From: Hyphomicrobium denitrificans ATCC 51888
GTDB lineage: Bacteria > Pseudomonadota > Alphaproteobacteria > Rhizobiales > Hyphomicrobiaceae
Reading direction: 5' to 3'
Length of the DNA stretch: 64,000 nucleotides
Assembly: GCF_000143145.1 (NCBI RefSeq)
Contig: NC_014313.1
Coordinates: forward strand, 620,001 to 684,000
The notes below the pieces were generated by a model. That model had not been told where the DNA came from, did not search any database, and saw only the letters and a program-made list of their open reading frames with translations. Shown piece by piece: positions 1,693-23,245 of this stretch. A program made the position numbers and the translations under genes. Numbering within the stretch: the first letter of the stretch is position 1; each line of letters opens with the position of its first letter.

Positions 1693-1693
1693 A

Positions 1694-1728
1694 TACGGAG
1701 GCCTCAGGTCAACGCTGAGGCCTCCGTT
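1694..1728. terminator. bidirectional terminator between nnrS and nirK
   Basis: A perfect inverted repeat with 13-bp arms (1695-1707 and 1715-1727, arm ACGGAGGCCTCAG) and a 7-base loop. It lies exactly between the converging nnrS and nirK genes. There is no long T-run on either side, but the stem is very stable. Confidence 0.8.
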
Positions 1729-1750
1729 ACGCTTTGGACTCTACGCGACG

Positions 1751-3211: not shown

Positions 3212-3554
3212 GCAATCTCCTCCTTGTGGTTCTCGCGCCTAAGTTTGCCGAGAGTGCTGCAGCCGATCGATCGCAGCGCGCGCGGCACGTGACCCTGACA
3301 GGCCGATTGATCCGTTTACGGATCGTTCGTTCTCGGGCCTCAGGCTGTGTCAAGCACGGGCCCGGAGAGGGAGCCTTGTCTTTGGATAAAAAAGGCGAGC
3401 CGCGCGTCGAAATCGCTCAGCGCATCGTGTCGCGACTACGTTTGACGCAGGCTCTGATGCGTTATGGGAATCGGATGTTTGCGGGAGCGGCAGGTCCGGT
3501 TCGCAATTGCGCGGGACTTAAGTTTTCAGGAGATGCAATACGGCGAGCGGGTCT
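3212..3554 (-). promoter_or_regulatory. nirK upstream region with palindrome
   Basis: This 343-base gap holds the nirK promoter. The clearest element is the palindrome GATCCGTTTACGGATC at 3309-3324 (7-bp arms, 2-base centre), about 100 bp upstream of the nirK start. A second palindrome, CGCAATTGCG, lies at 3502-3511. No TTG-N8-CAA box of the Fnr/NnrR type was found, so the regulator of nirK cannot be named from sequence. Confidence 0.45.
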
Positions 3555-4010
3555 CTATCGAGAGGCGCCGAGCACGTTCTCGATGCGTGACGCGATTTCG
3601 TTGTTTGGGATTTCGGCCGGGTCTTCGTCGATCTCGGCAACGACTTTGCTTCGGACTTCCGGCTTGATCATTTTGCGAAGGTTGCCCAGCATGGTGCCGG
3701 GGGCGATGATCACCAACCGGTCGAATGCTTCCTTGGCCGAGTGCTCCGCGAGCATCGTGGCGAGCTGGCTTGCAAACAGGGCTTCGAGGGCCGTGTTGGA
3801 AACACTGCGCGAACCAACGCCGAGGCGGGCAAGTCCGGCGGAGCCGTGGAGACGCTCTGATGGCGTCCTGCCGAGCTTACGGTCTGGCGCTTCCTCGCGT
3901 CGCGAGTCCGATCCGGAAATGACATGCACACCCTGGCGGTTTGCGGTCGTCTCCAGGATGCGGGCCTTGCCGCCATCTGTCACCAAGATCCATGTTCGCG
4001 TGTGTGTCAT
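3555..4010 (-). CDS. host attachment protein family (baeRF-like), stress-type
   Basis: A 151-residue soluble protein resembling the family named 'protein required for attachment to host cells'. The N terminus (THTRTWILVTDGGKARIL) and the late segment VIIAPGTMLGNLRKMI are typical: these proteins have an RNase-H/eRF1-domain-1-like fold and no proven enzyme activity. The name comes from an Agrobacterium phenotype and should not be taken as function here. The gene is upstream of nirK on the same strand but separated by 343 bases, so it is probably a separate unit, divergent from the FixL-like kinase. Confidence 0.75.
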   Translation of the reverse strand: MTHTRTWILVTDGGKARILETTANRQGVHVISGSDSRREEAPDRKLGRTPSERLHGSAGLARLGVGSRSVSNTALEALFASQLATMLAEHSAKEAFDRLVIIAPGTMLGNLRKMIKPEVRSKVVAEIDEDPAEIPNNEIASRIENVLGASR

Positions 4011-4205
4011 GCCGGGGCTGCGCGCTCATAGTGTATTTTCGTCCTTCAAATCTTTGCCGCGCATGCCGGGTGACGCCTTGATCGAAATCAGTAGAAATAG
4101 GGTGTTGCTGGACCATGCAGGAAGCAATTCGGCAATGGTTCTGCTAAGCTGAGCCGTTGCGTCAGATGCCTATCCAATACGTGAAATGAAGGAAAGAGCC
4201 GGCCG

Positions 4206-6098
4206 ATGCTGCAGGCGCTTCTCAAATCCGCCGTCGTGGCGATCCTGGCTATCGATGATCGCGGGCGAGTGCGGACGGTCAACCCCGCGGCCGAGCGCAT
4301 GTTTGGTTACACAGCGGAAGAGATGCTCGATCGCAACGTCAGCATGTTGATGCCGGAGCCGTACCGCACGCAGCACGACCACTACATGGAGCGGTATGTC
4401 CAGACGGGTGAGAAGCGGATCATCGGCATCGGCCGCGAAGTTGCGGGCCAGCGCAAGGACGGGTCGATATTTCCGATCCACCTCGCGGTTGGCGAATTCG
4501 AGATGCAGGGCGAGCGCTTCTTCTCCGGCATCATCACGGATTTGAGCGCGCATGCGCGATTGCAGGCGGAGATCGACCGTCAGTCACTGCTGTTCCAGGC
4601 GGTGTTCGACTATGTGCCAGAGACGCTGGTGATCTCGGCGCCCGAGGGACAGATCGTTCTCATCAATCCCGCCGCGACGCGCATGTTCGGCTATAGCGCG
4701 AGCGAAGCGATCGGGCTCGATTGGACGACGCTTTTCGATGCGCCGCCGGATAAAGCGCAACTTGAAAAAGAGATTGCATCGAAACATGCGGCCGACGGCG
4801 GAAGCGTTGAGATTTCAACCGTGCTCCGCCGCAAGGACGGGCGCACGTTTCCGGCGCAGGGGCATATCGCAGTCATTGCCGGCGCTGACGGGACGCAGAT
4901 GGCGGTGGTCAGCCTGTTCCGGGATATGACCGATGAGATGAAGCGGCGGGAAAGCTCGCTCAGGCTGCAGAAGCTCGAAGCCGTGGGCCAGCTGACGGGC
5001 GGCATCGCGCATGACTTCAACAATCTGCTGACGATCATTTCCGGCAATCTCGAATTGCTGGAAGGAACGATCGAAAATCCGGATGATCGTGAGCTTCTCT
5101 CGCGGGCGATGAGGGCCGCTGACTCGGGTGCGCGTCTGACCCGGAGACTGCTGACGTTTGCGCGCCGCCGGCAGCTGGCGCCGGAGGTGATCAATCTCAA
5201 CGAGCAGGTTCGGAGCATGACCGAGCTTCTGCATCGGACGCTTGGTGCGACAATCGATTTGCAGACGAGCTTCGCGCGCGATTTGTGGTTGACGCGCGCG
5301 GATGCGGGAGAGGTCGAATCCGCGGTCATCAACCTTGCGATCAATGCGCGCGATGCGATGCCCAATGGCGGCAAACTCGCCATCCGCACCAGCAATGCGG
5401 CGCTGGAAGGCGACGAGGTGGGCTTCGAGGGTCCGCTGGTGGCGGGCGATTATGTGCGCGTGTCGGTCTCGGACAACGGCTCCGGAATGACGAAGGACGT
5501 GCTCGGGCGCGTTTTCGAGCCATTCTTCACGACGAAGCCGCCGGGACGCGGAACGGGATTGGGGCTCAGCACCATCTACGGTTTCATCAAGCAATCCGGT
5601 GGGAGTATTACGATTTACAGCGAGCCCGGAGCGGGCACGACCGTGAACCTTTATTTTCCGCGATGCCTCGATTATCCGGGCGCTGTCGTTCCCGTGGCGG
5701 ACACGGCAAAGGAGGAACGAGGTCGCGGCGAGCGCATCCTGGTCGTAGAGGACAATGGCGACGTACGGGCGTTGACAGTTCAGCGTCTCGAACGTCTCGG
5801 CTACGAGGTGGTGGAGTTTCCCACGGGCACGGCTGCACGCGAAGCGCTCAAGGGCGGATTGAAGGTCGACCTCGTATTCAGCGACATCATCATGCCGGGA
5901 GGGATGACGGGGGTCGATCTCAGAAACTGGATCTGCGCGTTCGAGCCGGCTTTGCCAGTGATCTTGACGACGGGTTTTGCGGGAGACGCGGGCGATATTG
6001 CCACGATCGCCGATGAATGGCCGATCCTGCGCAAGCCTTATGGGCAAAGAGACCTTGCTGAAATCGTCCGGAAAACGCTGGAGAAGCGCAAGGTTTGA
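4206..6098 (+). CDS. hybrid FixL-like oxygen-sensing histidine kinase
   Basis: A soluble 630-residue hybrid sensor: PAS (1-125), second PAS (about 130-255), HisKA with phospho-acceptor H269, HATPase_c (about 370-495) and a C-terminal receiver with D560. The first PAS carries the FixL haem signature: H57 in the QHDHY segment aligns with the proximal histidine and R77 in GIGRE with the oxygen-linked arginine, followed by GQRKDGSIFP. It therefore probably binds haem and senses oxygen in the cytoplasm. No membrane segment is present, unlike classical membrane FixL; a fused receiver matches the hFixL type of Rhizobium etli. A ribosome site (AAGGAAAG) precedes the ATG. The OmpR-type regulator downstream, convergent, is the likely partner. 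Confidence 0.9.
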   Translation: MLQALLKSAVVAILAIDDRGRVRTVNPAAERMFGYTAEEMLDRNVSMLMPEPYRTQHDHYMERYVQTGEKRIIGIGREVAGQRKDGSIFPIHLAVGEFEMQGERFFSGIITDLSAHARLQAEIDRQSLLFQAVFDYVPETLVISAPEGQIVLINPAATRMFGYSASEAIGLDWTTLFDAPPDKAQLEKEIASKHAADGGSVEISTVLRRKDGRTFPAQGHIAVIAGADGTQMAVVSLFRDMTDEMKRRESSLRLQKLEAVGQLTGGIAHDFNNLLTIISGNLELLEGTIENPDDRELLSRAMRAADSGARLTRRLLTFARRRQLAPEVINLNEQVRSMTELLHRTLGATIDLQTSFARDLWLTRADAGEVESAVINLAINARDAMPNGGKLAIRTSNAALEGDEVGFEGPLVAGDYVRVSVSDNGSGMTKDVLGRVFEPFFTTKPPGRGTGLGLSTIYGFIKQSGGSITIYSEPGAGTTVNLYFPRCLDYPGAVVPVADTAKEERGRGERILVVEDNGDVRALTVQRLERLGYEVVEFPTGTAAREALKGGLKVDLVFSDIIMPGGMTGVDLRNWICAFEPALPVILTTGFAGDAGDIATIADEWPILRKPYGQRDLAEIVRKTLEKRKV

Positions 6099-6149
6099 GC
6101 GTGCTGCCGTCGACTTCTCGCGGCAGAGTTCATCGAGACGCGGTGCAGA

Positions 6150-6878
6150 CTAGGCTTTTCTTCGCCTGACATCGCTCGCGAACATATAGCCGATGCCGCG
6201 GATGGATTTGATCTTCGGCGACGTGCTTGAACCGTTGTCGATCTTGCGGCGCACTCTGCTCACCAATGCATCGATCGAACGGTCGAGCGGCGAATAGTCG
6301 TGCCCCTTCAAAATGTCCATGATCTCGTCGCGCGTCAGAGCGCGATGCGGGCGGCGGGCGAACATCTCGAGGAGGTTGAATTCGGCGGTCGTCAATTCGC
6401 GGGACACGCCATTTTCGTCTTTGAGTTCGCGGCTGGTGGCGTCCAACGACCAGCCGGCGAATTCGTAAATCTCGTGCGCTGGGGAGGATGTCGTCGAGGC
6501 GGCGCGGTTGCCGCCGTCGTGCCGTCGCAGGACGGAGCGTACGCGGGCTAGAACCTCGCGGAGGTTGAACGGCTTGGAGATATAATCGTCGGCTCCGATC
6601 TCGAGGCCGACGATGCGGTCGACGGTGTCGCCTTTACCCGAAACCATGACGATCGGAACATCGTGCTTGGCCCGGATTTCGCGGGCGAGTGAAAGTCCAT
6701 CTTCCTGCCCAAGGGCCAAATCCAGCGTGACGAGGCTGACGATATCCTCATTCAGCGCGGCGCGCGTCGCTGCGGCATCCGCGGCTTCCGCCACGGCGTA
6801 CCCTTCGCGCTCGAAGCACGTCCTCAGCAGACGTCGAATTTCGGGCTCGTCGTCAACGACCAGGATTTTCGTTGTCAC
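6150..6878 (-). CDS. OmpR/PhoB-family response regulator, FxkR-like
   Basis: A 242-residue regulator with an N-terminal receiver (phospho-acceptor D53 within TLDLALG, acidic pair at D9-D10, conserved Lys in SKPF) and a C-terminal winged-helix domain ending in VRRKIDNGS...IRGIGYMF. It converges on the hybrid FixL-like kinase and is divergent from the FixK-like gene. In Rhizobium etli an OmpR-type regulator, FxkR, couples hybrid FixL to fixK through a K-box (GTTACA-N4-GTTACA, recalled and not checked); a very similar repeat lies immediately upstream here. I infer an FxkR-type role. FixJ, the usual partner of FixL, is a NarL-type protein and is not what is seen here. Confidence 0.87.
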   Translation of the reverse strand: MTTKILVVDDEPEIRRLLRTCFEREGYAVAEAADAAATRAALNEDIVSLVTLDLALGQEDGLSLAREIRAKHDVPIVMVSGKGDTVDRIVGLEIGADDYISKPFNLREVLARVRSVLRRHDGGNRAASTTSSPAHEIYEFAGWSLDATSRELKDENGVSRELTTAEFNLLEMFARRPHRALTRDEIMDILKGHDYSPLDRSIDALVSRVRRKIDNGSSTSPKIKSIRGIGYMFASDVRRRKA

Positions 6879-6916
6879 GTCAGCTCTCCAAGGGGCATGG
6901 CGCGGTGAGAGTATAG

Positions 6917-6942
6917 ATTACAAATTGTTACAATTCTTTACC
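6917..6942 (+). promoter_or_regulatory. K-box-like triple repeat between fxkR-like and fixK-like genes
   Basis: Three hexamers in exact 10-bp register: ATTACA (6917-6922), GTTACA (6927-6932) and TTTACC (6937-6942), separated by AATT and ATTC. The first pair matches the recalled FxkR K-box, GTTACA-N4-GTTACA, with a single mismatch. The 10-bp phasing is typical of OmpR-family tandem half-sites. It lies 81 bases before the fixK-like start and 39 bases from the fxkR-like start. Confidence 0.7.
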
Positions 6943-7022
6943 GTTCAGGCAAACCTGGGCGAAAGCCATCGGCTTCTATGGTCTCGATTGATGCCGCCGT
7001 TCGAGAGCCAAGGAGAGCGGAT

Positions 7023-7715
7023 ATGCTGGGTGCAACTACTGTTCATGATGCTTTTTCGTACAACCCTCATCAGGGGCTATCGCGAAACTCCGGCGTAAGG
7101 AAGCGTGATGGGTTCGAGCACGCCTCGATCCGGCGGCTGCGAGCCAAAGAGTACATTTTCTGCGAGGGCGATCCGAGAACGCAGATTTTTTTAGTCGAGC
7201 AAGGGGTCGTCGCGCTTTCGAAGGTGCTGGGAGACGGGCGCCGACAGGTCATAGATTTCGCTTATCCCGGTGACTACATTGGGCTTGGCCTTCACGGCGA
7301 GTACATTTTCGACGCGCAGGCCACTTGTGCCGCAAAGGTTAAATGCATCGCGGCCTCGGCCCTTGAAGAAGCAGCCGCGTCCGATCCAGACCTCGCGCTG
7401 ATGCTCTATAAGGCGGTATCGGCCGAGCTTGCAACAGCCCGCAACCTGCTTGTCTGCGTCGGTCAGGGCACGGCGATGGAGCGCATTGCCGCTTTTCTCG
7501 TCAGGTTGCGTGACCGCGCAGCGAGTTCCGGCCGGAATGGCAGCGCCTTCAGCTTGATGATGCGCCGCTCGGATATCGGCGATCTCCTGGGGTTGACGAT
7601 CGAGACGGTCAGCAGAACACTGACGAAGTTGCGCAGCATGGGCGTGATCGAGATCGTCAACTCGACCGAGGTTCACGTTCTCGACGAGGTGAAGCTCGAG
7701 CAACTCGCGGCTTGA
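7023..7715 (+). CDS. FixK-like Crp/Fnr family transcription regulator
   Basis: A 230-residue regulator with an N-terminal cyclic-nucleotide-binding-type beta-roll and a C-terminal HTH whose recognition helix (TIETVSRTLTKL) has the E--SR pattern that reads TTGA half-sites. It lacks the N-terminal cysteine cluster of Fnr, so it is FixK-like: activity is probably set by its expression. I chose the ATG at 7023 because AAGGAG lies at 7010-7015; an upstream in-frame ATG at 6978 lacks such a site. The K-box-like repeat directly upstream suggests control by the adjacent two-component pair. Likely targets include the chuW-like promoter at 11.6 kb. Confidence 0.88.
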   Translation: MLGATTVHDAFSYNPHQGLSRNSGVRKRDGFEHASIRRLRAKEYIFCEGDPRTQIFLVEQGVVALSKVLGDGRRQVIDFAYPGDYIGLGLHGEYIFDAQATCAAKVKCIAASALEEAAASDPDLALMLYKAVSAELATARNLLVCVGQGTAMERIAAFLVRLRDRAASSGRNGSAFSLMMRRSDIGDLLGLTIETVSRTLTKLRSMGVIEIVNSTEVHVLDEVKLEQLAA

Positions 7716-7744
7716 TCTGATCACCCACGACAGTCGACTGGGAC

Positions 7745-7773
7745 CAAGGCCGCTTTCTCAGCGGCCTTTTTTA
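7745..7773 (+). terminator. rho-independent terminator after fixK-like gene
   Basis: Arms AAGGCCGC (7746-7753) and GCGGCCTT (7761-7768) with a 7-base loop, followed by a T-run. It closes the fixK-like gene and faces the converging PAS-protein gene. Confidence 0.85.
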
Positions 7774-7790
7774 TGAGTGCCCGGCTTTCT

Positions 7791-8945
7791 TCACGATGGC
7801 AGCGGCTCGTCCAGGATCAAGTCGTGGAACCCTTCGAGCACGACGCGAGCTTTGGCGCTGTCGTCGGCGATCACTCTGATGAAGCCTTCGAGCGCCAGCA
7901 GTTCGCCGCTGACGGAATAGACGCCGCGTCCTTGCTCCCAGATCCATTTTACCCGCCCAGACCTGTCGATGATGCGATAGACGAGCTGGAAGTTGCGCTT
8001 CAGCATGACCTGCTTGTGCACATGGTTCCAAGCATAGTCGCGGTCGTCGGGAAACATGATGTGCTGGAAATACAGGTTGGGGTCGTTCACCAGATGATAC
8101 GGCTCGTACCCAGTGACTTCGAGGCAACCGTCGCTGGCGAACTCGAAGCTCCAGTTGCGGTCGCTTTTGCAGCGATAAACCATGCCTGGAATGCTGTTGA
8201 GCAGCGTGCTCAGAGAGCGCCGCACCGCGCGTAGGCGCGCCTCGATTTCCTTCTGCTGATTTATGTCCGTCAATGTTCCGATGACGGTGCGATCCGAACC
8301 GTTGACGCCCCTGGCGCGCATATCGAGCCAACGGGATGTGTGATTGCGCGCGATCATGCGCAGCTCCATCCGGCAGGTATCGCGGTTGCAGCGCAGCAAA
8401 CCGCTGATCTGGGCGTCGGCCAAAGGGCGGTCTTCGGGATGCACGAACGTACCGAATGGCTGATTGAGGCTGTCGGCGATCGTGTAGTCCAGCAAATTCT
8501 CCCACGATGAGCTGAGCATCGAGATGTTTCCATCGCCGTCGATCGTGAAGACGATCTGCTCCATGTGCTCGACGATCTGTCGGTAGTCGACCGGCATAAG
8601 GCGACCTCTCGGGAGCGCTTGCGCGGTAGGACCGGCTGCCTCGTTCGGAGGGTCGAGAGGCGCTGTCGCGTCGAGCGATGTAATTGTTTGCGGAGTCGAG
8701 TCCGGTTTGATCTTTGTCAATACAGGCGGAGCCTGTTCCGGATCATCATCGCTCGATTTTAATTGTTCGCCACGTCGAACAATCGGGACGAGCACCAGAA
8801 CGATAACGCCAACGAGTATCGCGATCGCTCCCAGACCGAAGAGGGCGAATGCTTGTATGGTGCTGAAAATGAGCATCGTCATGAGCACGACCAGTCCGAT
8901 GACCACCGAAACAGCGCGTTCCTTCACACAGTCCCGCTTCGGCAA
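7791..8945 (-). CDS. membrane-anchored tandem PAS protein without output domain
   Basis: Two hydrophobic helices near the N terminus (about residues 12-53) anchor a Pro/Thr-rich linker and two PAS domains with PAC motifs (about 120-235 and 240-365; the second contains VYRCKSDRNWSFEFASDG and ends FIRVIADD). There is no kinase, GGDEF, EAL or HTH domain, so it may be a stand-alone sensor or partner. The start is unsure: TTG at 8945, GTG at 8927 or ATG at 8882; the last would remove part of the first helix. It is divergent from, and nearly touches, the NarX-like kinase gene, suggesting they share a regulatory region and perhaps a signal. Confidence 0.75.
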   Translation of the reverse strand: MPKRDCVKERAVSVVIGLVVLMTMLIFSTIQAFALFGLGAIAILVGVIVLVLVPIVRRGEQLKSSDDDPEQAPPVLTKIKPDSTPQTITSLDATAPLDPPNEAAGPTAQALPRGRLMPVDYRQIVEHMEQIVFTIDGDGNISMLSSSWENLLDYTIADSLNQPFGTFVHPEDRPLADAQISGLLRCNRDTCRMELRMIARNHTSRWLDMRARGVNGSDRTVIGTLTDINQQKEIEARLRAVRRSLSTLLNSIPGMVYRCKSDRNWSFEFASDGCLEVTGYEPYHLVNDPNLYFQHIMFPDDRDYAWNHVHKQVMLKRNFQLVYRIIDRSGRVKWIWEQGRGVYSVSGELLALEGFIRVIADDSAKARVVLEGFHDLILDEPLPS

Positions 8946-8976
8946 TCGCGGTAATTATTCTGCTTACATCAGCCGT

Positions 8977-10716
8977 GTGCGTAAAGCATTAGGTCGTTAC
9001 CCGCTATATTTTCGAACTGCGGGCTTGGTTACGAGCGCAGCGTTTGCGGCGCTGATTATTTTCACGGCATCGTGGTACTTATCGAATTACGGCGCGGCTA
9101 TCGGCGACGCACTGCGCAAGCTGCATGCAGCCGAGATTTCATTGGTGGCGCAGAAGCCCGAGGGTGCGAAGGATCAAAACGTATCGCCCGTCGCAGACCT
9201 CATTGGTTCGGACGTTTTTGACGATCAGACCATTTTGCGAGAGTCGAACGTCAATCTCGACGTCTTGAAGGACGGCCAGGAGGGCAAAAGCGAAATAGTC
9301 TCTCGCGATGCGATCGAGCTGTTGCAGCAGGCGGGGCTTAATCTTCAACGGAATTTGGAAGCGAGGCGTACGCAGGTTGCGTTTCTGCAGCTGTTGAGCT
9401 TTTGCGTTTTGCTGTTTTGCCTTGCTCGTCTGAGCGTCGGGTCGCGGCGGGTTCTCGTTGACCGCGTGGACCGGATCGCGGGGGCGGTGTCAGCTGGTGG
9501 CGCTTACTCGCAAGGTCGCGCGCGACGCGATGAGATCGCACGGCTCGAAGACCGCGTTGGCCGCTTGCTGACCGATATCGCAAATTCCGGTGCGGGAACG
9601 GACACGCGCACCTCGCTCGAGCGCATGGCGCGCATTCAAGATTATCTTTCGAATGCCATGAGCGTGATGCTTCGGCATCCGTTCGGCGACGGAATGCTTC
9701 GGAAAATTCTCTATGCACTGGAGCGCACGCTCGATTTGCAGAATACGGCGATCGTTTTTTCCGAGGACGCGGCGGTGTTTCATTCGGGACGATGCCTGTT
9801 CTCGAACCGGGAGCCGGCGGCGCTGTCGAAGCAGTTCGAGGCCGAGATATCGCAGGCCGGAGCCGGAGCCATCGTTGAAGAGCATGCGGAGGACTTGCGC
9901 ACGCGCAAAGTGGGTCTCGGATTCGTTGATGCGACGGGCGAAACAAGCGTGCTGCTGGTCGAGTTATCGGGCGATCGGACGCTAGAAGCGGTCGAGATCA
10001 AGACGCTGCGTATTACGGCGAGCTTGCTATCCATGGCGGCGAAACTCGATGGGCACGATCAAGAGGCCCGCCGTATCGCCGTGCTTGAAGAGCGCGCCGC
10101 GATCGCGCGAGAGCTGCACGACTCGCTCGCGCAGTCCTTGTCCTTCATGAAGATCCAGCTCGCGCGGCTGCAGTCTTATCAGAACAACGTGACCAGCGAA
10201 TCCCGCGAGCAGACGAAGGCCATCACCAGCGAATTGCGTCATGGCCTGGACAACGCGTACCGGGAATTGCGCGAGCTGCTTGCCACCTTCCGCGTTCACA
10301 TGGACGTCAGGGGGCTCGACTTTGCAATCGAGTCCGCGATCGAAGAATTCAGCCAGAGGTCGGGCCTGCCGATCTCTCTGGACAACAGGCTTGCCGGTGC
10401 AGCGCTGACGGTGAACGAGGAATTTCATGTCCTGCATGTCGTGCGCGAGGCGCTAAGCAACATCCTGCGCCATGCGCGCGCCACCAACGTCTGGATCACG
10501 ATGGACGTTCGGCGGAATGGGGAAGTGACCGTAACAATCGATGACGACGGCATCGGTTACCGCCCGGCGGAAACCAAGGAAACGTCGCATCACGGGCAGA
10601 CGATTATGAAGGAGCGTGCTTTCAGTCTCGGCGGAGCGATCGACATCGCTCCGAGGCCGGAAGCAGGCACGCGCGTGACGCTGACGTTCACGCCGCAGAA
10701 ATTGCAGTATCAATGA
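8977..10716 (+). CDS. NarX-type sensor histidine kinase
   Basis: Membrane sensor kinase with a first helix soon after the start, a periplasmic loop of about 95 residues, a second helix (VAFLQLLSFCVLLFCLARL), a HAMP-like and GAF-like linker, then HisKA_3 (RELHDSLAQSLSF, phospho-acceptor His) and HATPase_c (EALSNILRHARA, DDDGIGY). This is the NarX/NarQ order. The frame has no good start near the membrane helix: GTG at 8977 is my choice, while upstream ATGs such as 8899 would overlap the divergent PAS-protein gene. The NarL-type regulator follows after seven bases. The ligand is unknown; nitrate or nitrite is suggested only by family and context. Confidence 0.85.
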   Translation: MRKALGRYPLYFRTAGLVTSAAFAALIIFTASWYLSNYGAAIGDALRKLHAAEISLVAQKPEGAKDQNVSPVADLIGSDVFDDQTILRESNVNLDVLKDGQEGKSEIVSRDAIELLQQAGLNLQRNLEARRTQVAFLQLLSFCVLLFCLARLSVGSRRVLVDRVDRIAGAVSAGGAYSQGRARRDEIARLEDRVGRLLTDIANSGAGTDTRTSLERMARIQDYLSNAMSVMLRHPFGDGMLRKILYALERTLDLQNTAIVFSEDAAVFHSGRCLFSNREPAALSKQFEAEISQAGAGAIVEEHAEDLRTRKVGLGFVDATGETSVLLVELSGDRTLEAVEIKTLRITASLLSMAAKLDGHDQEARRIAVLEERAAIARELHDSLAQSLSFMKIQLARLQSYQNNVTSESREQTKAITSELRHGLDNAYRELRELLATFRVHMDVRGLDFAIESAIEEFSQRSGLPISLDNRLAGAALTVNEEFHVLHVVREALSNILRHARATNVWITMDVRRNGEVTVTIDDDGIGYRPAETKETSHHGQTIMKERAFSLGGAIDIAPRPEAGTRVTLTFTPQKLQYQ

Positions 10717-10723
10717 TGTTCAG

Positions 10724-11404
10724 GTGCCGATCATGATCAAGGTTGTTCTCATTGATGACCATCCGTTGTTTCGCAAAGGCGTTCGGCAAATGATCTCGCA
10801 GGACCCGAACTTCAGGGTCGTCGGGGAGGCGGCTTGCGGGCAGCAGGGCATCGAACTCGCGTTGGCGTTGAACCCCGATATCGTGCTGATCGACATCAAC
10901 ATGAAGGGCATGACCGGGATCGATACGCTTCGGCACTTGAAGGCGACGCATCTTCTTGCGCGCTATATCATCCTGACCGTCTCGAACTCAGAAGACGATC
11001 TGATCGAGGCGCTTCGTGCAGGCGCCGACGGCTATCTGCTCAAGGATATGGAGCCGGAAGATCTGTGCACGAACCTGCTCAAAGCCTCGAGCGGGGCGAC
11101 GGTTCTGCAAGACACGCTGGCGGAGGTTCTGAAAAGTGCGCTGCTCTCGCCGGTCAGTGCCGGAAGCTCCGGCGAGGAACTCCTGACGCCGCGCGAGCGC
11201 GAGATTCTCGAATGTCTGGCGGAAGGGCTGAACAACAAGACCATCGCGCGCAAACTCGGGATCAGCGATGCCACGGTGAAGGTTCACGTCAAAAACGTTT
11301 TGCGCAAGTTGAACCTCGCGAGCCGGCTTGAGGCCGCCGTGTGGAAGCATCGCCTGAAGCAGCCGAACCAAAACGGCGGCAAGATCGATCGCGGGCTGCA
11401 CTGA
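10724..11404 (+). CDS. NarL/FixJ-family response regulator
   Basis: A 226-residue regulator: receiver domain with phospho-acceptor D57 (VLIDINM), acidic pair DD at 11-12, conserved Lys in YLLKDMEP, and a C-terminal LuxR-type HTH (LTPREREILECLAEGLNNK, ISDATVKVHVKNVLRKL) typical of NarL. It is seven bases after the NarX-type kinase, so the two form a cognate pair. GTG at 10724 or ATG at 10733 may be the start; the latter has a CAGG element eight bases upstream. Expected to be phosphorylated by its neighbour and to act as a DNA-binding activator or repressor of nitrogen-oxide respiration genes. Confidence 0.9.
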   Translation: MPIMIKVVLIDDHPLFRKGVRQMISQDPNFRVVGEAACGQQGIELALALNPDIVLIDINMKGMTGIDTLRHLKATHLLARYIILTVSNSEDDLIEALRAGADGYLLKDMEPEDLCTNLLKASSGATVLQDTLAEVLKSALLSPVSAGSSGEELLTPREREILECLAEGLNNKTIARKLGISDATVKVHVKNVLRKLNLASRLEAAVWKHRLKQPNQNGGKIDRGLH

Positions 11405-11718
11405 CGGCCGCTCGTTCGGCCGGTCGCCATCCCTAAAACGTCATTGCGAATTTGAGCGCGGCTTTGATGCGATGGCGCGCGTTTGCGCCGTCGCGTGAAC
11501 TTCGGGTGCCGGGCTCGAGAAAATCGCGTGCGCAATGCGATTCTTTACTTATTTTGGAATGAATCTAAAAAGATATTTATTTCAATAACTTGACATGAAA
11601 CAAGCTCGCGCACGCTGCCAAAACATAACATCGTATCGGAGTGCGAGATTTATGCCGCTGGTCTCGGCCGGACGATGATCTCGATGGGGAATGTTTGTCT
11701 GCCGGGAACGTGAGGCGT
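11405..11718. other. intergenic region before chuW-like gene
   Basis: After a GC-rich palindrome just behind the narL-like stop (GGCCG-ctcgtt-CGGCC, no T-run), the sequence becomes notably AT-rich from about 11535 to 11600, unlike its surroundings. It holds the FixK-type promoter described separately. No gene is seen; an in-frame GTG at 11641 could extend chuW by 26 residues but lacks a ribosome site. Confidence 0.5.
11590..11631 (+). promoter_or_regulatory. FixK/Fnr-type class II promoter of chuW-like operon
   Basis: TTGACATGAAACAA at 11590-11603 fits the TTGAY-N4-RTCAA box with one mismatch in the right arm. A -10-like TAACAT lies at 11626-11631. If transcription starts at 11638, the box centre is at -41.5, the exact class II activator position, and TAACAT occupies -12 to -7. 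The FixK-like protein encoded at 7.0 kb is an obvious candidate activator. Confidence 0.68.
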
Positions 11719-13116
11719 ATGACCACTGTCGATCTCTCACGCTACTTCGCCAACCTCGACGGCGATGTCATCAGCACGGCGTTTGCGTCACGGCGCGCGG
11801 TGATGCCGTGGCGGGATCGCCGTCCGCTTGGCGAAGACGATATCGCGGACATCTGGTCCGGTGTGCTTGCCGAGTGCGGTCCGCCAAGGCGACGGCTGGC
11901 CTATATCCACGTTCCGTTCTGCGCCAATCATTGCCTGTTCTGCGGCTTCTACCGCAATGCCTATACGCCCGCGCAGGCGGCGACCTATACCGATCTTCTC
12001 GTCGCCGAGATTGAGCGTGAGCCAGGCGCAGCGGGAATCCGGCATCACCCGATCGACGCCGTATATCTCGGCGGCGGTACGCCGAGCGCATTGTCGGCCA
12101 GCGACCTGGCGCGCATCGTCGAGGCCGTGCGCACGAACCTGCCTTTGTCGCCGGACTGTGAAATCACGCTCGAAGGCCGCATCATTCATTTCGATGACGA
12201 CAAGATCGATGCCAGCCTCGCCGCCGGCGTGAACCGGATTTCGATCGGCGTGCAATGCTTCGATACCGAGGTGCGTCGCCGGCAAGGGCGGCGCGCCAGC
12301 AAAGATGAAGCGATCCGTTTCATCAAAGGCATTCGCGATCGCAATCGTGCGGCTCTGGTCATCGATCTGCTTTACGGGTTGCCTGGGCAAACTCTCGATA
12401 TATGGCGGGAAGACCTCCGCATCGCCGCGGATCTCGCGCCCGACGGCGTCGATCTTTATGGCCTCAATCTCATCCCAGGCTCGCCATTGCAGCGTGCGGT
12501 GGCGTCAGGCAAGCAGCAGCCGACGACGCTACAGAATCTCGGAGCGATGTATGAGGCCGGCGCCAGCATTCTCGGCGCGAAGGGCTGGCGGCAGATCAGC
12601 AATAGCCATTGGGCGCGAACACCGCGCGAGCGCAACCGCTACAACCTGCGCATCAAGCAAGGCGCCGAATGTCTGGCCTACGGCTCGGGTGGGGGCGGTA
12701 CGATCGGGCGCTACAGCTATCACGTCAGCAGCGATCTTCAGATTTATTCAGATGGGATTTTGGCGGGGCGCAAGCCGATCGGCGGCATGAGCCTGTCCGA
12801 CGATCTCGCCATCGCGCGCCATTATGTGACTGCCGGGTTCGAGGTCGGCCATCTCGACCTCGGCGGACTCGACGTGCCGCACATCGCCAACGCGAGCGCA
12901 CTGTTTCTGCCGTTGCTGGAGCAATGGCAGCGCGCCGGATTGGTTGTGATGGAGGGGAGCGTCGCCAATCTCACCCTCGCAGGGCGCTTTTGGTACAGCA
13001 ACCTGATTGCGGCATTCAACGACATCATGAGCAGCGCTGCGCCGGTTTCCGGCACGACGCATGGCGCGCCGCCCCGTCATTTCAAACCACATATGAAAAC
13101 AGGAGAATCCGTATGA
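11719..13116 (+). CDS. chuW: ChuW/HutW-like radical SAM haem-degrading enzyme (anaerobilin synthase type)
   Basis: A 465-residue radical SAM protein of the HemN-like group. The cluster motif C68-x3-C72-x2-C75 lies in HVPFCANHCLFCGFYRN, followed by YLGGGTPSALS. The E. coli relative ChuW opens haem without oxygen to a linear tetrapyrrole (anaerobilin). Assignment over HemN or HemW rests on the immediate downstream HutX/ChuX and ChuY-like genes, with which it overlaps (ATGA at 13113-13116). I chose ATG 11719, since it gives a length close to ChuW (about 445). Cytoplasmic; probably induced at low oxygen through the upstream FixK-type box. Confidence 0.82.
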   Translation: MTTVDLSRYFANLDGDVISTAFASRRAVMPWRDRRPLGEDDIADIWSGVLAECGPPRRRLAYIHVPFCANHCLFCGFYRNAYTPAQAATYTDLLVAEIEREPGAAGIRHHPIDAVYLGGGTPSALSASDLARIVEAVRTNLPLSPDCEITLEGRIIHFDDDKIDASLAAGVNRISIGVQCFDTEVRRRQGRRASKDEAIRFIKGIRDRNRAALVIDLLYGLPGQTLDIWREDLRIAADLAPDGVDLYGLNLIPGSPLQRAVASGKQQPTTLQNLGAMYEAGASILGAKGWRQISNSHWARTPRERNRYNLRIKQGAECLAYGSGGGGTIGRYSYHVSSDLQIYSDGILAGRKPIGGMSLSDDLAIARHYVTAGFEVGHLDLGGLDVPHIANASALFLPLLEQWQRAGLVVMEGSVANLTLAGRFWYSNLIAAFNDIMSSAAPVSGTTHGAPPRHFKPHMKTGESV

Positions 13117-17652: not shown

Positions 17653-18135
17653 CTAGTCTTCCTTCGTTCCGGTCTCCTGGATGCCTTCCTCGTTACCGTA
17701 ATACTTGTACGGCAGGAACTTGCCTGACATCGATATTTGCACCCTATCGCCTTTGGCGTGCGGCTGGCGTTCGATGCTCATGTCGAAATCAATCGCCGAC
17801 ATGATGCCATCGCCGAATTCTTCCTCGATCAAGGCTTTCCAAGCCGGTCCATTGACCATGACGAGTTCGTAGAACCGATAGATCAGCGGATCGGTCGGGG
17901 GCATTGGCATGCCGCGGTACGGCACTTCATTGAGCAGGCGCTCCTCGCTTTCCGACAAACCGAAGAGGTTGGCTGCCTTCTTTGCCAACGGTTTGACGAG
18001 CTTCTGCTGTCCGAGCAATGCGCCGACGACAAGGACAGGCGAAATACCTCCGATCGCATCGGTGATGTGCTTCCAGCTCCAACCCTTCGCACGCTTGATA
18101 TCAAGAATCTTCTCGGTCAATTGATCGCGACGCAT
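17653..18135 (-). CDS. cynS: cyanate hydratase (cyanase)
   Basis: Cytoplasmic decameric enzyme converting cyanate and bicarbonate to ammonia and CO2 via carbamate. The 160-residue product keeps the catalytic triad: R87 and E90 in YRFYE and S113 in GIMSAID, matching E. coli R96, E99 and S122 with exact spacing. The N-terminal half has the usual helical domain (KGWSWKHITDAI). I start it at ATG 18135, preceded by GGAGA; a TTG at 18147 would add four residues. It lies 71 bases after formate dehydrogenase and is separated from it by a strong hairpin, so they probably share a transcript with differential stability. Confidence 0.95.
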   Translation of the reverse strand: MRRDQLTEKILDIKRAKGWSWKHITDAIGGISPVLVVGALLGQQKLVKPLAKKAANLFGLSESEERLLNEVPYRGMPMPPTDPLIYRFYELVMVNGPAWKALIEEEFGDGIMSAIDFDMSIERQPHAKGDRVQISMSGKFLPYKYYGNEEGIQETGTKED

Positions 18136-18158
18136 GGTGCTCTCCAAGATGGTGATGA

Positions 18159-18184
18159 GGCGGCGAGCGTCACCGCTCGCCGCC
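18159..18184 (-). terminator. intercistronic hairpin between fdh and cynS
   Basis: Perfect 11-bp GC-rich arms GGCGGCGAGCG (18159-18169) and CGCTCGCCGCC (18174-18184), 4-base loop, without a T-run on the minus strand. It may attenuate read-through into cynS or protect the upstream fdh message from decay. Confidence 0.6.
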
Positions 18185-18206
18185 GATTGTCATGTGGCTA
18201 GAAGTT

Positions 18207-19412
18207 CTAGCGCTTGAACTTTGCCGCTTCTTCCGAGCCGCCCGTCGCGTTGCCGGCGCTGTAGGAGTGCGCGCCGACGCCCGCAAGCTTGCCGCCCTGA
18301 ACGATCAGATATTCGTTGCGGATCGGCTTTTTCGCGAAATAGCACTCGAGGATTTCACGCGTTCCAGCCGCATAGCGGGCCTGCGCCGACAGCGATGTGC
18401 CGGAGATGTGCGGGGTCATGCCGTGATGCGGCATCGTCCGCCACGGATGATCCTGTGGCGCCGGCTGCGGGAACCAGACGTCGCCGCCGTATCCTGCGAG
18501 CTGACCGCTTTCGAGCGCGCGCACGATCGCGTCGCGATCGCAAAGCTTGCCGCGAGCGGTGTTGACCAAGTACGCGCCGCGCTTGAAGTTCTTCAGCGAC
18601 TTGTCATTGATCATGTGCTCGGTTTCAGGATGCAATGGGCAGTTGAGCGTCACCACATCGCAAACCTTGGTTAGGCTTTCCAGGCTCGTGTGATGGGTGA
18701 GGTTCAACTCCTTCTCGACGGCTTCGGGCAGACGATGGCGATCGAGATAGTGCAGGTGGACATCGTGAGGCTTCAGCAGGCGCAGAACGCGCAGGCCGAT
18801 GCGGCCGGCGGCGACGGTGCCGATGTGCATGCCTTCGAGGTCGTAGGAGCGGCTTACGCAATCGGCGATATTCCAGCCGCCTTTGATCACCCAGTTGTAG
18901 GACGGGATGTAGTTGCGAACGAGCGCGAGCATCGTCATCACGACGTGCTCGGCAACGCTGTTGCTGTTGCAGTATGTGACCTCAGCAACGGTGATGCCGC
19001 GATCCATCGCAGCCTGAAGATCGGTGTGATCCGATCCGATGCCGGCCGTGACGATCATCTTCAGCTTCGGCGCCTTGGCGATGCGCTCGGCTGTCATATA
19101 GGCCGGCCAGAACGGCTGCGAGATGACGATCTCAGCGTCATGCAGTTCCTGGTCGAGCTTGGAATTCGCGCCGTCCTTGTCGGACGTCACGACGAGTGTG
19201 TGGCCGTTGCTTTCCAGAAACTTGCGCAGGCCGAGTTCGCCCGAAACGCTGCCGAGGAGCTCACCGGGCTTGAAGTCGATGGCCTGCGGCGTGGGCGCCG
19301 TTTGCCCGTCAGGGTATTTGGTGATGATGGGGATATCATCCCGCGCGTAGGACTTCGGAAGTCCGCCAACGGGATCATCGTAGAGGACACAGACGACTTT
19401 TGCCATTTTCAT
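18207..19412 (-). CDS. fdh: NAD-dependent formate dehydrogenase
   Basis: Metal-free D-2-hydroxyacid-type dehydrogenase oxidising formate to CO2 with NAD, the last step of methylotrophic C1 oxidation. The 401-residue product is clearly related to Pseudomonas sp. 101 FDH. Expected residues are present with a constant +3 offset: N149, D224 (NAD rather than NADP preference), R287, Q316 and H335 (TPHISGTS). The Rossmann loop is TVAAGRIGLRVL. ATG 19412 (or 19406) follows an AAGGAA site. LysR is encoded upstream on the same strand and cynS downstream; cyanase releases CO2 and ammonia, so the pairing may serve nitrogen supply during C1 growth. Confidence 0.95.
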   Translation of the reverse strand: MKMAKVVCVLYDDPVGGLPKSYARDDIPIITKYPDGQTAPTPQAIDFKPGELLGSVSGELGLRKFLESNGHTLVVTSDKDGANSKLDQELHDAEIVISQPFWPAYMTAERIAKAPKLKMIVTAGIGSDHTDLQAAMDRGITVAEVTYCNSNSVAEHVVMTMLALVRNYIPSYNWVIKGGWNIADCVSRSYDLEGMHIGTVAAGRIGLRVLRLLKPHDVHLHYLDRHRLPEAVEKELNLTHHTSLESLTKVCDVVTLNCPLHPETEHMINDKSLKNFKRGAYLVNTARGKLCDRDAIVRALESGQLAGYGGDVWFPQPAPQDHPWRTMPHHGMTPHISGTSLSAQARYAAGTREILECYFAKKPIRNEYLIVQGGKLAGVGAHSYSAGNATGGSEEAAKFKR

Positions 19413-20742: not shown

Positions 20743-22104
20743 TCACGACGTCGTAACGATCGACGGCTCCAGCTGTCCCACAGCAGCCTGCAGCGAGCGT
20801 CTGCTGCCTTGATCAAGGCCCAACGCTTCAAACGTTCGCTCCAGGTATTGGAGAAAAACCCGCCAATCGCTTGCCGTAATCGGGAGGTGCGCGTGGGCAC
20901 TTACCATGTCACGCCCGGCGTAACGTGTGGGCCCGCCAAGCTCAGAACACAGATACTGAATCAGAAGTTTTTCTTCCTGGCGGATACCGACGATGCTGCG
21001 ATCGGACCAGAACCGGCCCACTTGCGGATCTGCCTGCATGCGGCCAAGAAGGTCACGCGCCAGCGCGGTGATCGTCGCGCGCCCTCCGATCCGCAAGTAC
21101 AGCGAGTCTGCTGCGGGGCGCTGAATGTCCAAAGCCTTGAGACGCGACGCCAGAGTGGAGGGATTCATGCGCAGAAGTTCCGCTGCGCCGCCCTTGCCGG
21201 ATACGCGCCATTTCGCGACTTCCAGCGCGGCAATCAGATTATTGCGTTCAAAAGACAGCACTTCATCGGCGGTGACATAGTCGCCGTCGACGGTTTCGGT
21301 TGGCGTGCGCGGAAGAGCGGCTGCCCTTGGTTTCGGAGCGGGCGGCAGAACGGCGTCCAAATCCGCGCTGCCAAGAATAATGACTCGCTCGAGGACGTTG
21401 CGGAGTTCGCGAATGTTTCCCGGCCAGTCGTAAGCGCAGAGCTGGCGCACTTGCTGCTTCGAAAGACGCGGCGGTTTGCGCCGCAAGCGGCCTGCGATCT
21501 CGGCCAGGATGTGATCCGAAAGCATGCCGATGTCGTCGGCGCGCTCTCGCAGAGGAGGAACCTCGATCGGAAACGTGCTCAGCCTGTAGTAAAGATCGGG
21601 CCGGAACCTTCCGGATGCCGCATCGTCCGCCAGGCATCGATTGGTTGCCGCAATCACGCGGACATCGACTTGCCGGGTCTGATCGTCGCCGACGCGCTCG
21701 AAGGACATTTGCTGAAGCGCGCGCAAAAGCTTTCCCTGCAGCTCAGGGGGGATCTCTCCGACCTCGTCGAGGAGAAGCGTGCCCTGATGCGCGGTTTCGA
21801 GCCGCCCCTTGCGGTCGCGCGTTGCGCCGCTGAATGCGCCCTTCACGTGGCCGAAGAATTCGCTTTCGAACAAGTCTCTCGGGACTGCCGCGCAGTTCAC
21901 GACGACCAGCGGCTGGCGAGCGCGCCGGCTACGCTCGTGGATACGGCGGGCGATGAGTTCCTTGCCGACGCCGGACTCGCCGAGGATGAGAACCGTTGCA
22001 TCGGTCAGTGCGACGGCGTCCGCGCGCTCCACACATTGCCGGAGACTTCGGCTTTGTCCGATGATGGCAGAAGAGCTGTTATCAGTCATCGCGAGATTTC
22101 GCAT
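20743..22104 (-). CDS. sigma-54 activator fused to a C-terminal truncated haemoglobin domain
   Basis: A 453-residue regulator with three parts: AAA+ sigma-54 interaction domain (about 14-250, Walker A GESGVGKE at 42-49, GAFSGAT loop variant of GAFTGA, Walker [10 protein letters not shown]), a Fis-type HTH (about 297-335, ending [12 protein letters not shown]) and a C-terminal globin (about 338-453) beginning [15 protein letters not shown]. The globin matches group I truncated haemoglobins: [17 protein letters not shown], proximal H404 in [11 protein letters not shown]1-type Phe in VGRFWSD. Polar distal residues seem replaced (Leu at B10 and E11). There is no N-terminal sensory domain, so the globin is the probable gas sensor. 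Start ATG 22104 is my choice; the frame continues upstream to 22248. It is divergent from a -24/-12 promoter. Confidence 0.9.
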
Positions 22105-22131
22105 TGGTTTGCGATTTCTCACGATAGCGTG

Positions 22132-22193
22132 GTTATGACTTTTCGCAAATGAGTTCGATGCAAATTTTGTGGAGGGCGTAACACCGTCATAAC
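22132..22193 (+). promoter_or_regulatory. candidate upstream activator sequence for the sigma-54 activator
   Basis: Perfect 8-bp inverted arms GTTATGAC (22132-22139) and GTCATAAC (22186-22193), centres 54 bp apart, about five helical turns. They lie 28-89 bases upstream of the -24 element, where enhancer sites of sigma-54 activators are found. Confidence 0.5.
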
Positions 22194-22219
22194 GCTGATG
22201 ATTTTCCGTTGGCAGCATG

Positions 22220-22235
22220 TGGCACGCAAAATGCT
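22220..22235 (+). promoter_or_regulatory. sigma-54 (-24/-12) promoter of the cupin gene
   Basis: TGGCAC at 22220-22225 and ATGCT at 22231-22235 give the invariant GG-N10-GC spacing (GG 22221-22222, GC 22233-22234). Only one base of the TTGCW element deviates. Predicted transcription start near 22246, 21 bases before the cupin ATG. The divergent gene encodes a sigma-54 activator. Confidence 0.75.
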
Positions 22236-22266: not shown

Positions 22267-22752
22267 ATGCTCAAAGCATCCATTTTTCTGTCGGCTCTTT
22301 TTCTTGCAGCGCAGGCCGCGAGCGCGGCTGAGGTCGGATCGAATGTGGCGCCGTTGTCCTTCGGCAAGGATCAGACAATCGTCGATATCGGCAAGGCCGT
22401 CTGGGGTCCGCTCAAAGTCGAGGGATTGCCGGAAGGGGGCGAGATCGCAGTCCTCAGAGGCGACCTTTCCAAGGGCGACGCCGAGGTGCTTTTGCGGTTT
22501 CCGCCGGGATATGTCGTTCCCAATCACAGCCACACCTCGGACGAGGTTTATCTCTGGCTGAGCGGGGCTTTCACGCTCGTCGCGCATGATGGAACGAGGA
22601 CGGCATTCAATGGACCGGCCTACATCAGCTTTCCCGGCAACGCGCCTCCGCATGGTCTGGAATGCGGAGCCTCCGCCCCGTGCGTTCTCTATCTGAAGTA
22701 TTCGCGGCCGTTCGATATCCAGTATTTCCCCGAACCGCCGCCGAAGCGATAG
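22267..22752 (+). CDS. exported cupin-domain protein
   Basis: A 161-residue protein with a signal peptide (about 1-21, ending AQAASAA) and a single cupin barrel. Motif 1 is present as VVPNHSHTSDEVYLWLSG (H-x-H-x4-E) and motif 2 as SFPGNAPPHGLE, so a metal site is likely. A cysteine pair (CGASAPC) lies near the end. Similar ChrR-type cupins bind zinc or iron; the reaction is unknown. It follows a -24/-12 promoter and an AGGGAGAG ribosome site, and is divergent from the globin-bearing sigma-54 activator, which is its likely regulator. Confidence 0.78.
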   Translation: MLKASIFLSALFLAAQAASAAEVGSNVAPLSFGKDQTIVDIGKAVWGPLKVEGLPEGGEIAVLRGDLSKGDAEVLLRFPPGYVVPNHSHTSDEVYLWLSGAFTLVAHDGTRTAFNGPAYISFPGNAPPHGLECGASAPCVLYLKYSRPFDIQYFPEPPPKR

Positions 22753-22777
22753 GTGTTGCAGCCGTCAGGAAGCAGCG

Positions 22778-23245
22778 ATGGGCATTCATAATGCGCATTA
22801 CCGCGTCGGGGCGCTCGCCGTTGTGGCGATGGCGTTCCTGCCGAGCGAAACGCAGGGCACGGGGTTGAACCATGTCCTGCAGCCGGGCAGCTATGAGGTC
22901 GAGGTGATCGCAGAAGATCCGGCGACCAGAGCACAGCAGACGGTTCGCAAAGTCGAGCGCTGCCTCGAAGCTCCCGCGATCGTCAAGCATGAGGTCTTTG
23001 CCATCCTGAGCGATATGCCGGCGTCGGACTGTCCGAAATACGAGGTCTGTGCGGGGGAAACGCGAACCGGTTTCATCGCGCAATGTGCGTCGGCGGACAT
23101 ATCTAGCGCGGTTGGCATGTTCGCTCTCGAACCCACGGCCTTTCGCGGCCGCATCGAGGTCAAGGATGCGTCCGGAAAACTGAAGAACGTCGAAATCCAG
23201 TACGGGCGGCGGACAGGGGCGTGCGGAGCGACGACAACGCCATAA
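22778..23245 (+). CDS. exported DUF3617-like protein
   Basis: A 155-residue protein with an N-terminal hydrophobic segment (YRVGALAVVAMAFLPSETQG) resembling a signal peptide. The body has the DUF3617 pattern: GSYEVEVIAE at the start, conserved cysteines (RCLEAP, DCPKYEVC, QCASA, GACG) and a final strand GRRTGACG. The function of this periplasmic family is not known. It is 25 bases after the cupin gene with an AGGAAG site, so both are likely one transcript under the sigma-54 promoter. Confidence 0.65.
   Translation: MGIHNAHYRVGALAVVAMAFLPSETQGTGLNHVLQPGSYEVEVIAEDPATRAQQTVRKVERCLEAPAIVKHEVFAILSDMPASDCPKYEVCAGETRTGFIAQCASADISSAVGMFALEPTAFRGRIEVKDASGKLKNVEIQYGRRTGACGATTTP

Follow-up and report, generated by a model that had tools for sequence, protein, structure and literature searches.

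The window, by which we mean the whole stretch of 64,000 nucleotides analysed here, sits in the complete 3.64-Mb genome of a Hyphomicrobium strain, a soil bacterium with a single rpoN. On its minus strand, positions 20743..22104 form one unbroken frame encoding 453 aa (448 aa if translation starts at the alternative ATG 22089). By Pfam, this protein comprises a Sigma-54 interaction AAA+ domain (residues 14-181 of 453; 21562..22065, minus; PF00158, 6.3e-67), an AAA+ lid (residues 186-246; 21367..21549, minus; PF25601, 7.3e-19), a Fis-type helix-turn-helix (HTH; residues 285-324; 21133..21252, minus; PF02954, 3.2e-5, 24.0 bits for a cut-off of 22) and, at its C terminus, a group I truncated globin (residues 334-445; 20770..21105, minus). 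The same Pfam scan finds no domain ahead of residue 14. The AAA+ part carries what we take to be the Walker A, Walker B, arginine-finger and sensor II motifs, and its sigma-54-contact loop reads GAFSGA in the sequence, for a consensus of GAFTGA (residues 89-94; 21823..21840, minus). In the globin, the truncated fold, the GG motifs and the proximal histidine F8 (H404; 20893..20895, minus) are all present. In the protein model, a linker of about 10 residues separates the HTH helix at 315-324 from the first globin helix, which begins at 335.

The AAA+ motifs, the L1 loop GAFSGA, the single rpoN and a -24/-12 site at the divergent gene (see below) together support the assignment of the product as a predicted sigma-54 activator. 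Against it, the loop deviates from GAFTGA (Thr to Ser), and most mutants of this loop are given as inactive in the available part of a review (PMC7175178). Among the 94 fused proteins recognised by pattern, in which loop variants were counted by architecture, 19 have GAFSGA and 39 GAFTGA. The best NCBIfam match of the activator is the NorR model, with 336.5 bits under a cut-off of 476; this score and the missing N-terminal GAF domain led us to reject membership of the NorR family.

A rare fusion with a conserved layout

The same layout recurs in other proteins. A protein search returned the best 120 of at least 8000 scored candidates, and the first 97 of these minus the truncated P0046 gave the 96 proteins that were aligned (own cluster P0001 included, rows below P0097 left out). 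Thus, among the matches listed, at least 96 proteins from several sources align over the AAA+ domain, the HTH region and the globin in the same order, with His at F8 in 96/96. An HTH_8 assignment is precomputed in just 13 of the 97 listed relatives. Ahead of the AAA+ domain, 61 of the 96 are bare, 5 carry a PAS domain and 30 a nucleotide-cyclase-like domain.

A tree of the AAA+ and HTH regions contains one split (support 0.815) that has all of the 94 fused proteins recognised by pattern on the same side; for comparison, the tree included only about two dozen non-globin activators, taken from the same match list. Also on the fused side are P0010 and P0082, which are fused and were missed by the pattern, P0112, which has no globin, and P0046 and P0098, which have broken globin frames. 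In the globin tree, 55 single-domain relatives stand apart from the 96 fused globins (support 0.797) with two outgroup globins on the fused side, so that this tree does not isolate the fused globins. A single fusion event would therefore be the simplest reading of the AAA+/HTH tree, and the globin tree gives it no confirmation. That two genes were joined by a frameshift, an assembly error or faulty annotation is practically negligible as an explanation: the open frame, the shared layout of the 96 aligned proteins and the grouping of the fused ones in the AAA+/HTH tree refute it.

The fusion is rare. By open-frame length it occurs in 3 of 103 genomes of the family (G000, G041 and G050, all of the window's genus). 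Three of 397 genomes of the order matched at E <= 1e-40, of which G000 and G050 are fused and G1124 has the globin in a 135-aa frame with no activator frame before it. The own genome is the only fused one among 385 of the class (6 matches, E <= 1e-25) and among 398 of the phylum (3 matches, E <= 1e-30). These absences are soft, because at most 8-9 first-look candidates were scored per genome. On plasmids, no fused protein was found among the best 20 of 31 matching records, the best-ranked of which has 36.9% identity; 17 of the 20 bear the annotation group 1 truncated haemoglobin, and the other 3 have none at that place. Carriers with named records are Hyphomicrobium MAG-139, one member each of the Woeseiaceae and the Geminicoccaceae, and a gammaproteobacterial MAG in which the activator frame is broken (L093:9006-10309); Hyphomicrobium and Filomicrobium MAGs occur among the listed relatives. 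One record, present as both G050:C13 and L034, was counted once.

No description of a sigma-54 activator with a globin domain was found in open PMC full text (5.39 million papers) among the matches listed, subscription literature being outside the scope; the strictest of the searches matched no paper whatever. Automatic annotations do exist, for example 'transcriptional regulator with GAF, ATPase, and Fis domain/truncated hemoglobin YjbI', so the architecture has already been met by annotation software; no study of such proteins was found in the open literature. A preliminary description of this DNA, made from its letters, had proposed a sigma-54 activator with an empty N terminus, an AAA+ domain, a Fis-type HTH and a group I truncated globin with proximal H404 behind it, all in one frame, and had called the arrangement rare or undescribed. 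The Pfam domains, the model and the 96 relatives bear out the layout, which we regard as confirmed in one intact frame, and rarity and novelty hold within the genomes and open literature just given. Its further reading, in which the binding of NO, CO or O2 would be tied to sigma-54 transcription, we regard as partly supported. The domain search and the survey of relatives that it proposed are those reported above.

The divergent cupin gene and its putative promoter

Upstream of the activator and in the opposite orientation lies a gene that the preliminary description had left unnamed and that is the likely target, judging from its position and promoter. It encodes a 161-aa cupin (22267-22752, plus; Cupin_7, 2.2e-7) with an N terminus that looks like a signal peptide by eye and with what is presumably the canonical cupin motif 1; the protein is predicted to function as a cupin. 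A second gene (22778..23245, plus), whose 155-aa product matches no Pfam family at cut-off, likely belongs to the same operon. The pair is kept at another fusion locus, L101, with 91% and 77% identity, and in the gammaproteobacterial locus L093 a cupin 46-48% identical to that of the window is again divergent from the activator, as in the window and L101. With another cupin at L050, 4 of the 6 fusion loci have a cupin gene in the divergent position. Among the 103 family genomes, G000 and G041, which both carry the fusion, are the only ones with a close homologue of the window cupin; five other genomes have distant ones (39-57 bits), and G050 has the fusion without such a cupin.

Two loci speak against a uniform target. 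At L102 the divergent gene encodes a molybdopterin oxidoreductase, and at L036 it encodes an uncharacterised protein that matches no Pfam family; genes for Cu/Zn-SOD and redoxin come after it. This L036 operon, which belongs to a PAS-type fusion of a Woeseiaceae MAG (L036:5238-8327), stands behind a sigma-54-type site, and near it lies a gene that we take, by eye, to be Dps-like.

A putative -24/-12 (sigma-54) promoter, GTGGCACGCAAAATGCT (22219..22235, plus), precedes the cupin start by 31 bases and scores 14.5 of 16. The best sites at the other fusion loci score 14.5 (L101), 13.5 (L102), 14.0 (L093), 15.0 (L036) and 13.0 (L050). Thus, a site of at least 13 precedes the divergent gene in 6/6 fusion loci versus 5/117 control windows of the same loci, a comparison in which the control windows have mechanical starts and include some target genes, the target starts were chosen by hand, and an initial look at L093 and L050 was followed by a scan over a wider range. 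The L050 site is the weakest: its 13.0 is reached by 4% of control windows and was found after shifting the assumed gene start, the first scan, nearer the activator, having given 11.0 at best. Genome-wide, the pattern TGGCACG-N5-TGC has 11 perfect matches and its reversed control 23, so that the pattern alone means little.

Upstream of the promoter we noticed three copies of a repeat, all on the plus strand: ATTTCGCA (22096..22103, which overlaps the start codon if translation of the activator begins at 22104), ATTTCTCA (22114..22121) and TTTTCGCA (22140..22147). They are putative enhancer sites. Of the 11 perfect promoter matches, only the window site has more than one repeat copy with at most one mismatch (it has three), and one other has a single copy. 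Similar repeats occur 107-126 bases before the -24/-12 site in 5 of 6 loci, and at least two copies are found in 4/6 target regions versus 7/117 control windows, with none at L093. In shuffled sequences, the 12 copies observed (mean 2.2) were reached in 0/500 cases, a circular result since the motif was derived from the sequences in which it was counted. An unbiased 7-mer count puts GAAATCT first (z 6.5) and GCGAAAT third (z 5.8); the null maximum was 3.6-5.4 for 19 shuffles and reached 9.0 for one more. The repeat statistics are weak, given that the motif was derived from the very sequences examined and ranks only third in the unbiased count.

Distal pocket and gene neighbourhoods as clues to the ligand

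To map the pocket, globin positions were hand-counted from alignments onto the truncated-haemoglobin fold, with fold comparison by VIA-align and with the residue numbering of trHbN and Paramecium globin as we take it to be. The distal side is mostly apolar. B10 is L353 (Leu in 39 of the 96 fused globins, Phe in 49, other residues in 8, never Tyr), E11 is L381 (Leu in 90/96, with no Gln in the 96) and G8 is F417 (Phe in 82/96; Leu also occurs). The exceptions are CD1, W366, which is Trp in 96/96, and E7, E377, which is Glu in 95/96. Catalytic trHbN relies on Tyr B10 and Gln E11, and with both absent from all 96 proteins we rejected membership of this NO dioxygenase class. Compared with trHbN, the activator globin has Trp at CD1, Glu at E7 and a three-residue insertion before helix E; unlike trHbN and Shewanella benthica TrHbN, it is fused to an activator and apolar at both B10 and E11.

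The globin would bind haem with H404 as its proximal ligand. The E10 position argues against this: in the available text of Bustamante et al. (PMC4720485) a basic residue there usually supports the haem, and in the fused globins it is replaced by Leu in 81/96 and is not basic among the rows listed. The same text links hydrophobic distal residues in truncated haemoglobins to rapid O2 release and a low affinity for O2, its residues for group N being Leu at positions E7, E11 and G8 (PMC4720485); in the fused globins E7 is Glu. The apolar pocket thus speaks against both NO dioxygenation and stable binding of O2 and makes NO or CO the better guesses, but the Trp at CD1 and the Glu at E7 might touch the ligand, which leaves room for O2.

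These features bear on what the globin does. We consider it quite improbable that this domain, instead of being a sensor, is a tethered enzyme that removes NO or peroxide, or a module for oligomerisation. Globins, including truncated ones, do act as NO dioxygenases (PMC3820574, available part), and the sensor role of the activator's globin is a proposal only; however, the globin lacks the Tyr B10 and Gln E11 typical of catalytic trHbN, no reductase domain is present, and the globin constantly adjoins the HTH in the 96 proteins. A less likely alternative to NO sensing keeps the same device with O2 or oxidative stress as the signal: high O2 or peroxide would be needed to load or oxidise a haem of low affinity, and periplasmic protection would then be induced. 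The Cu/Zn-SOD and redoxin operon at L036 with the presumably Dps-like gene nearby, the window cupin, which is of the ChrR type, and the possible contact of CD1 Trp and E7 Glu with O2 agree with it, whereas the apolar B10, E11 and G8 and the NO-related company of some single-domain relatives do not.

This company was seen in 57 loci with single-domain relatives of the globin, from several phyla, a set in which the columns R, F and W are partly fixed by the scan pattern DPQ[LV][GS]RFW. NnrS is nearby in 4/57 loci and a flavohaemoglobin in 2/57, together 5/57, since both stand with the globin at L059, where a gene that we take by eye to be NorR-like lies beside them. A FAD-domain match in L069 at 6 kb was left out of the flavohaemoglobin count. 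If nnrS is assumed to occur once per 4 Mb, the 0.88 Mb covered should contain 0.2 copies. Neither gene is present in the DNA fetched for the other 52/57 loci, which counts against NO. The globins at L059:5369-10360, L041:99-1762, L074:8454-10357 and L080:4295-6770, beside flavohaemoglobin or NnrS, have a similar pocket signature, and such single-domain globins may possibly form an NO-related subfamily. A Pfam tally of 146 proteins beside the single-domain relatives (25 of 169 families listed) has no dominant family, with 4 PNPOx, 4 GST, 2 NnrS and 2 flavohaemoglobin-type domains and 1 cytochrome d1. Two recurrent neighbours were set aside, one in 10 loci that looks like an antisense frame of the globin and a 9-locus cluster first considered as NnrS, an example of which reads as a histidine kinase. 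Against NO stand the activator's own divergent genes, none of which is a known NO gene, and the L036 SOD operon, which points to oxidative stress.

The preliminary description had also placed the gene next to denitrification genes. NnrS and a 486-aa NirK (family match from residue 184 only) do lie in the same 64 kb, which leans towards NO, but 17.5 kb away, which makes this a link of neighbourhood only. Positions 493-13116 of the window hold NnrS, NirK, a FixK-like protein, a NarX/NarQ-like kinase and ChuW/HutW, and thus form a region of denitrification and anaerobic haem genes. The anaerobic haem-degradation gene ChuW/HutW, at 11641-13116, agrees with a further reading in which the haem binds CO or sulfide, or haem availability itself is the signal. 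Apolar pockets also suit CO. We regard this reading as improbable; no CO-oxidation or sulfide genes were noticed in passing beside the six fusion loci. In the available text of PMC12423496, ChuW, ChuX and ChuY of H. denitrificans are Hden_0599-0601 and follow a cluster that includes genes for nitric oxide reductase, and narQL are numbered Hden_0557/0558, a mismatch with the NarX/NarQ-like kinase directly before ChuW in the window.

Two further observations concern neighbouring or similar genes. At 17653-19412 of the window, a cyanase gene adjoins that of a NAD-dependent formate dehydrogenase. At L113:8569-10107, another type of group I globin stands beside a ferredoxin-like reductase (labels by eye), which suggests a functional pair, and a similar globin is present in the own genome (C1:759195).

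Proposed working and known systems

The architecture, the conservation of motifs, the globin fold, the recurrent promoter and the divergent arrangement are computational observations, on which we build a proposal for haem binding, the ligand, and the sign and path of the signal. We propose that the protein is a haem-gas-responsive sigma-54 enhancer-binding protein with its C-terminal group I truncated haemoglobin as sensor and NO as the most likely ligand, a reading to which we give a probability of about 0.6. The haem held by H404 would take up a diatomic gas, most likely NO, in the mostly apolar distal pocket, and the change would travel through the short linker into the adjoining HTH, changing how the protein binds its enhancer or assembles into a ring at the repeats 22096-22147. 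Via GAFSGA, the AAA+ ring would then touch sigma-54 and open the promoter 22219-22235, and the cupin operon 22267-23245 would be transcribed. Because the only candidate sensor follows the HTH, coupling is likeliest through DNA binding or the arrangement of HTH pairs, and hence ring assembly; alternatively, the globin might contact the AAA+ surface directly, as in NorR.

Like NorR, the window protein is an AAA+ activator with an HTH, probably of the sigma-54 type and probably responding to NO. In NorR, an N-terminal GAF domain represses the AAA+ domain without NO (PMC2941729, available part), whereas the window protein has no N-terminal domain and a C-terminal globin. PspF is also without an N-terminal domain, and the window protein adds the C-terminal globin. 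PspF itself is not known to have a C-terminal domain, and its control is exerted in trans. The globin-coupled sensors AfGcHK and NmpU likewise tie a haem globin to regulation, and NmpRSTU ends in the NtrC-like NmpR (PMC11841059, available part). There, however, a protoglobin sits on a histidine kinase separate from the activator, while the window protein has a truncated globin on the activator's own C terminus; since the sensor globin is N-terminal in globin-coupled sensors and C-terminal here, we rejected membership of that class.

In the part of the review available to us, the regulatory domain of sigma-54 activators is N-terminal or absent (PMC7175178), and the corresponding part of a globin survey names two groups of chimeric globins, flavohaemoglobins and globin-coupled sensors (PMC1457004). 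If our proposal is true, sigma-54 activators can accept a sensory domain behind the HTH, which would be a further route to their control besides N-terminal domains and partner proteins. Truncated haemoglobins are common, and most discussion of them concerns NO and O2 chemistry; in the window protein one forms part of a transcription activator, where it would have a direct sensing role. As a putative promoter and a likely target gene can be named, the gas-sensor role of such globins is testable by one reporter assay.

More tentatively, and with somewhat less than even confidence, the fused proteins may constitute a rare, scattered family whose truncated haemoglobin, behind the DNA-binding domain, acts as an NO-selective sensor for transcription, and of which one branch without GAFTGA (30/96) may have left sigma-54 control. 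These 30 cyclase-type proteins (among P0063-P0097, with a PF00211 front) keep Walker A and the globin and have lost GAFTGA (GAVPGS and others in its place). In at least 7 of the 30, the Walker B Glu is replaced by Gln. This branch may therefore no longer use sigma-54 or ATP hydrolysis.
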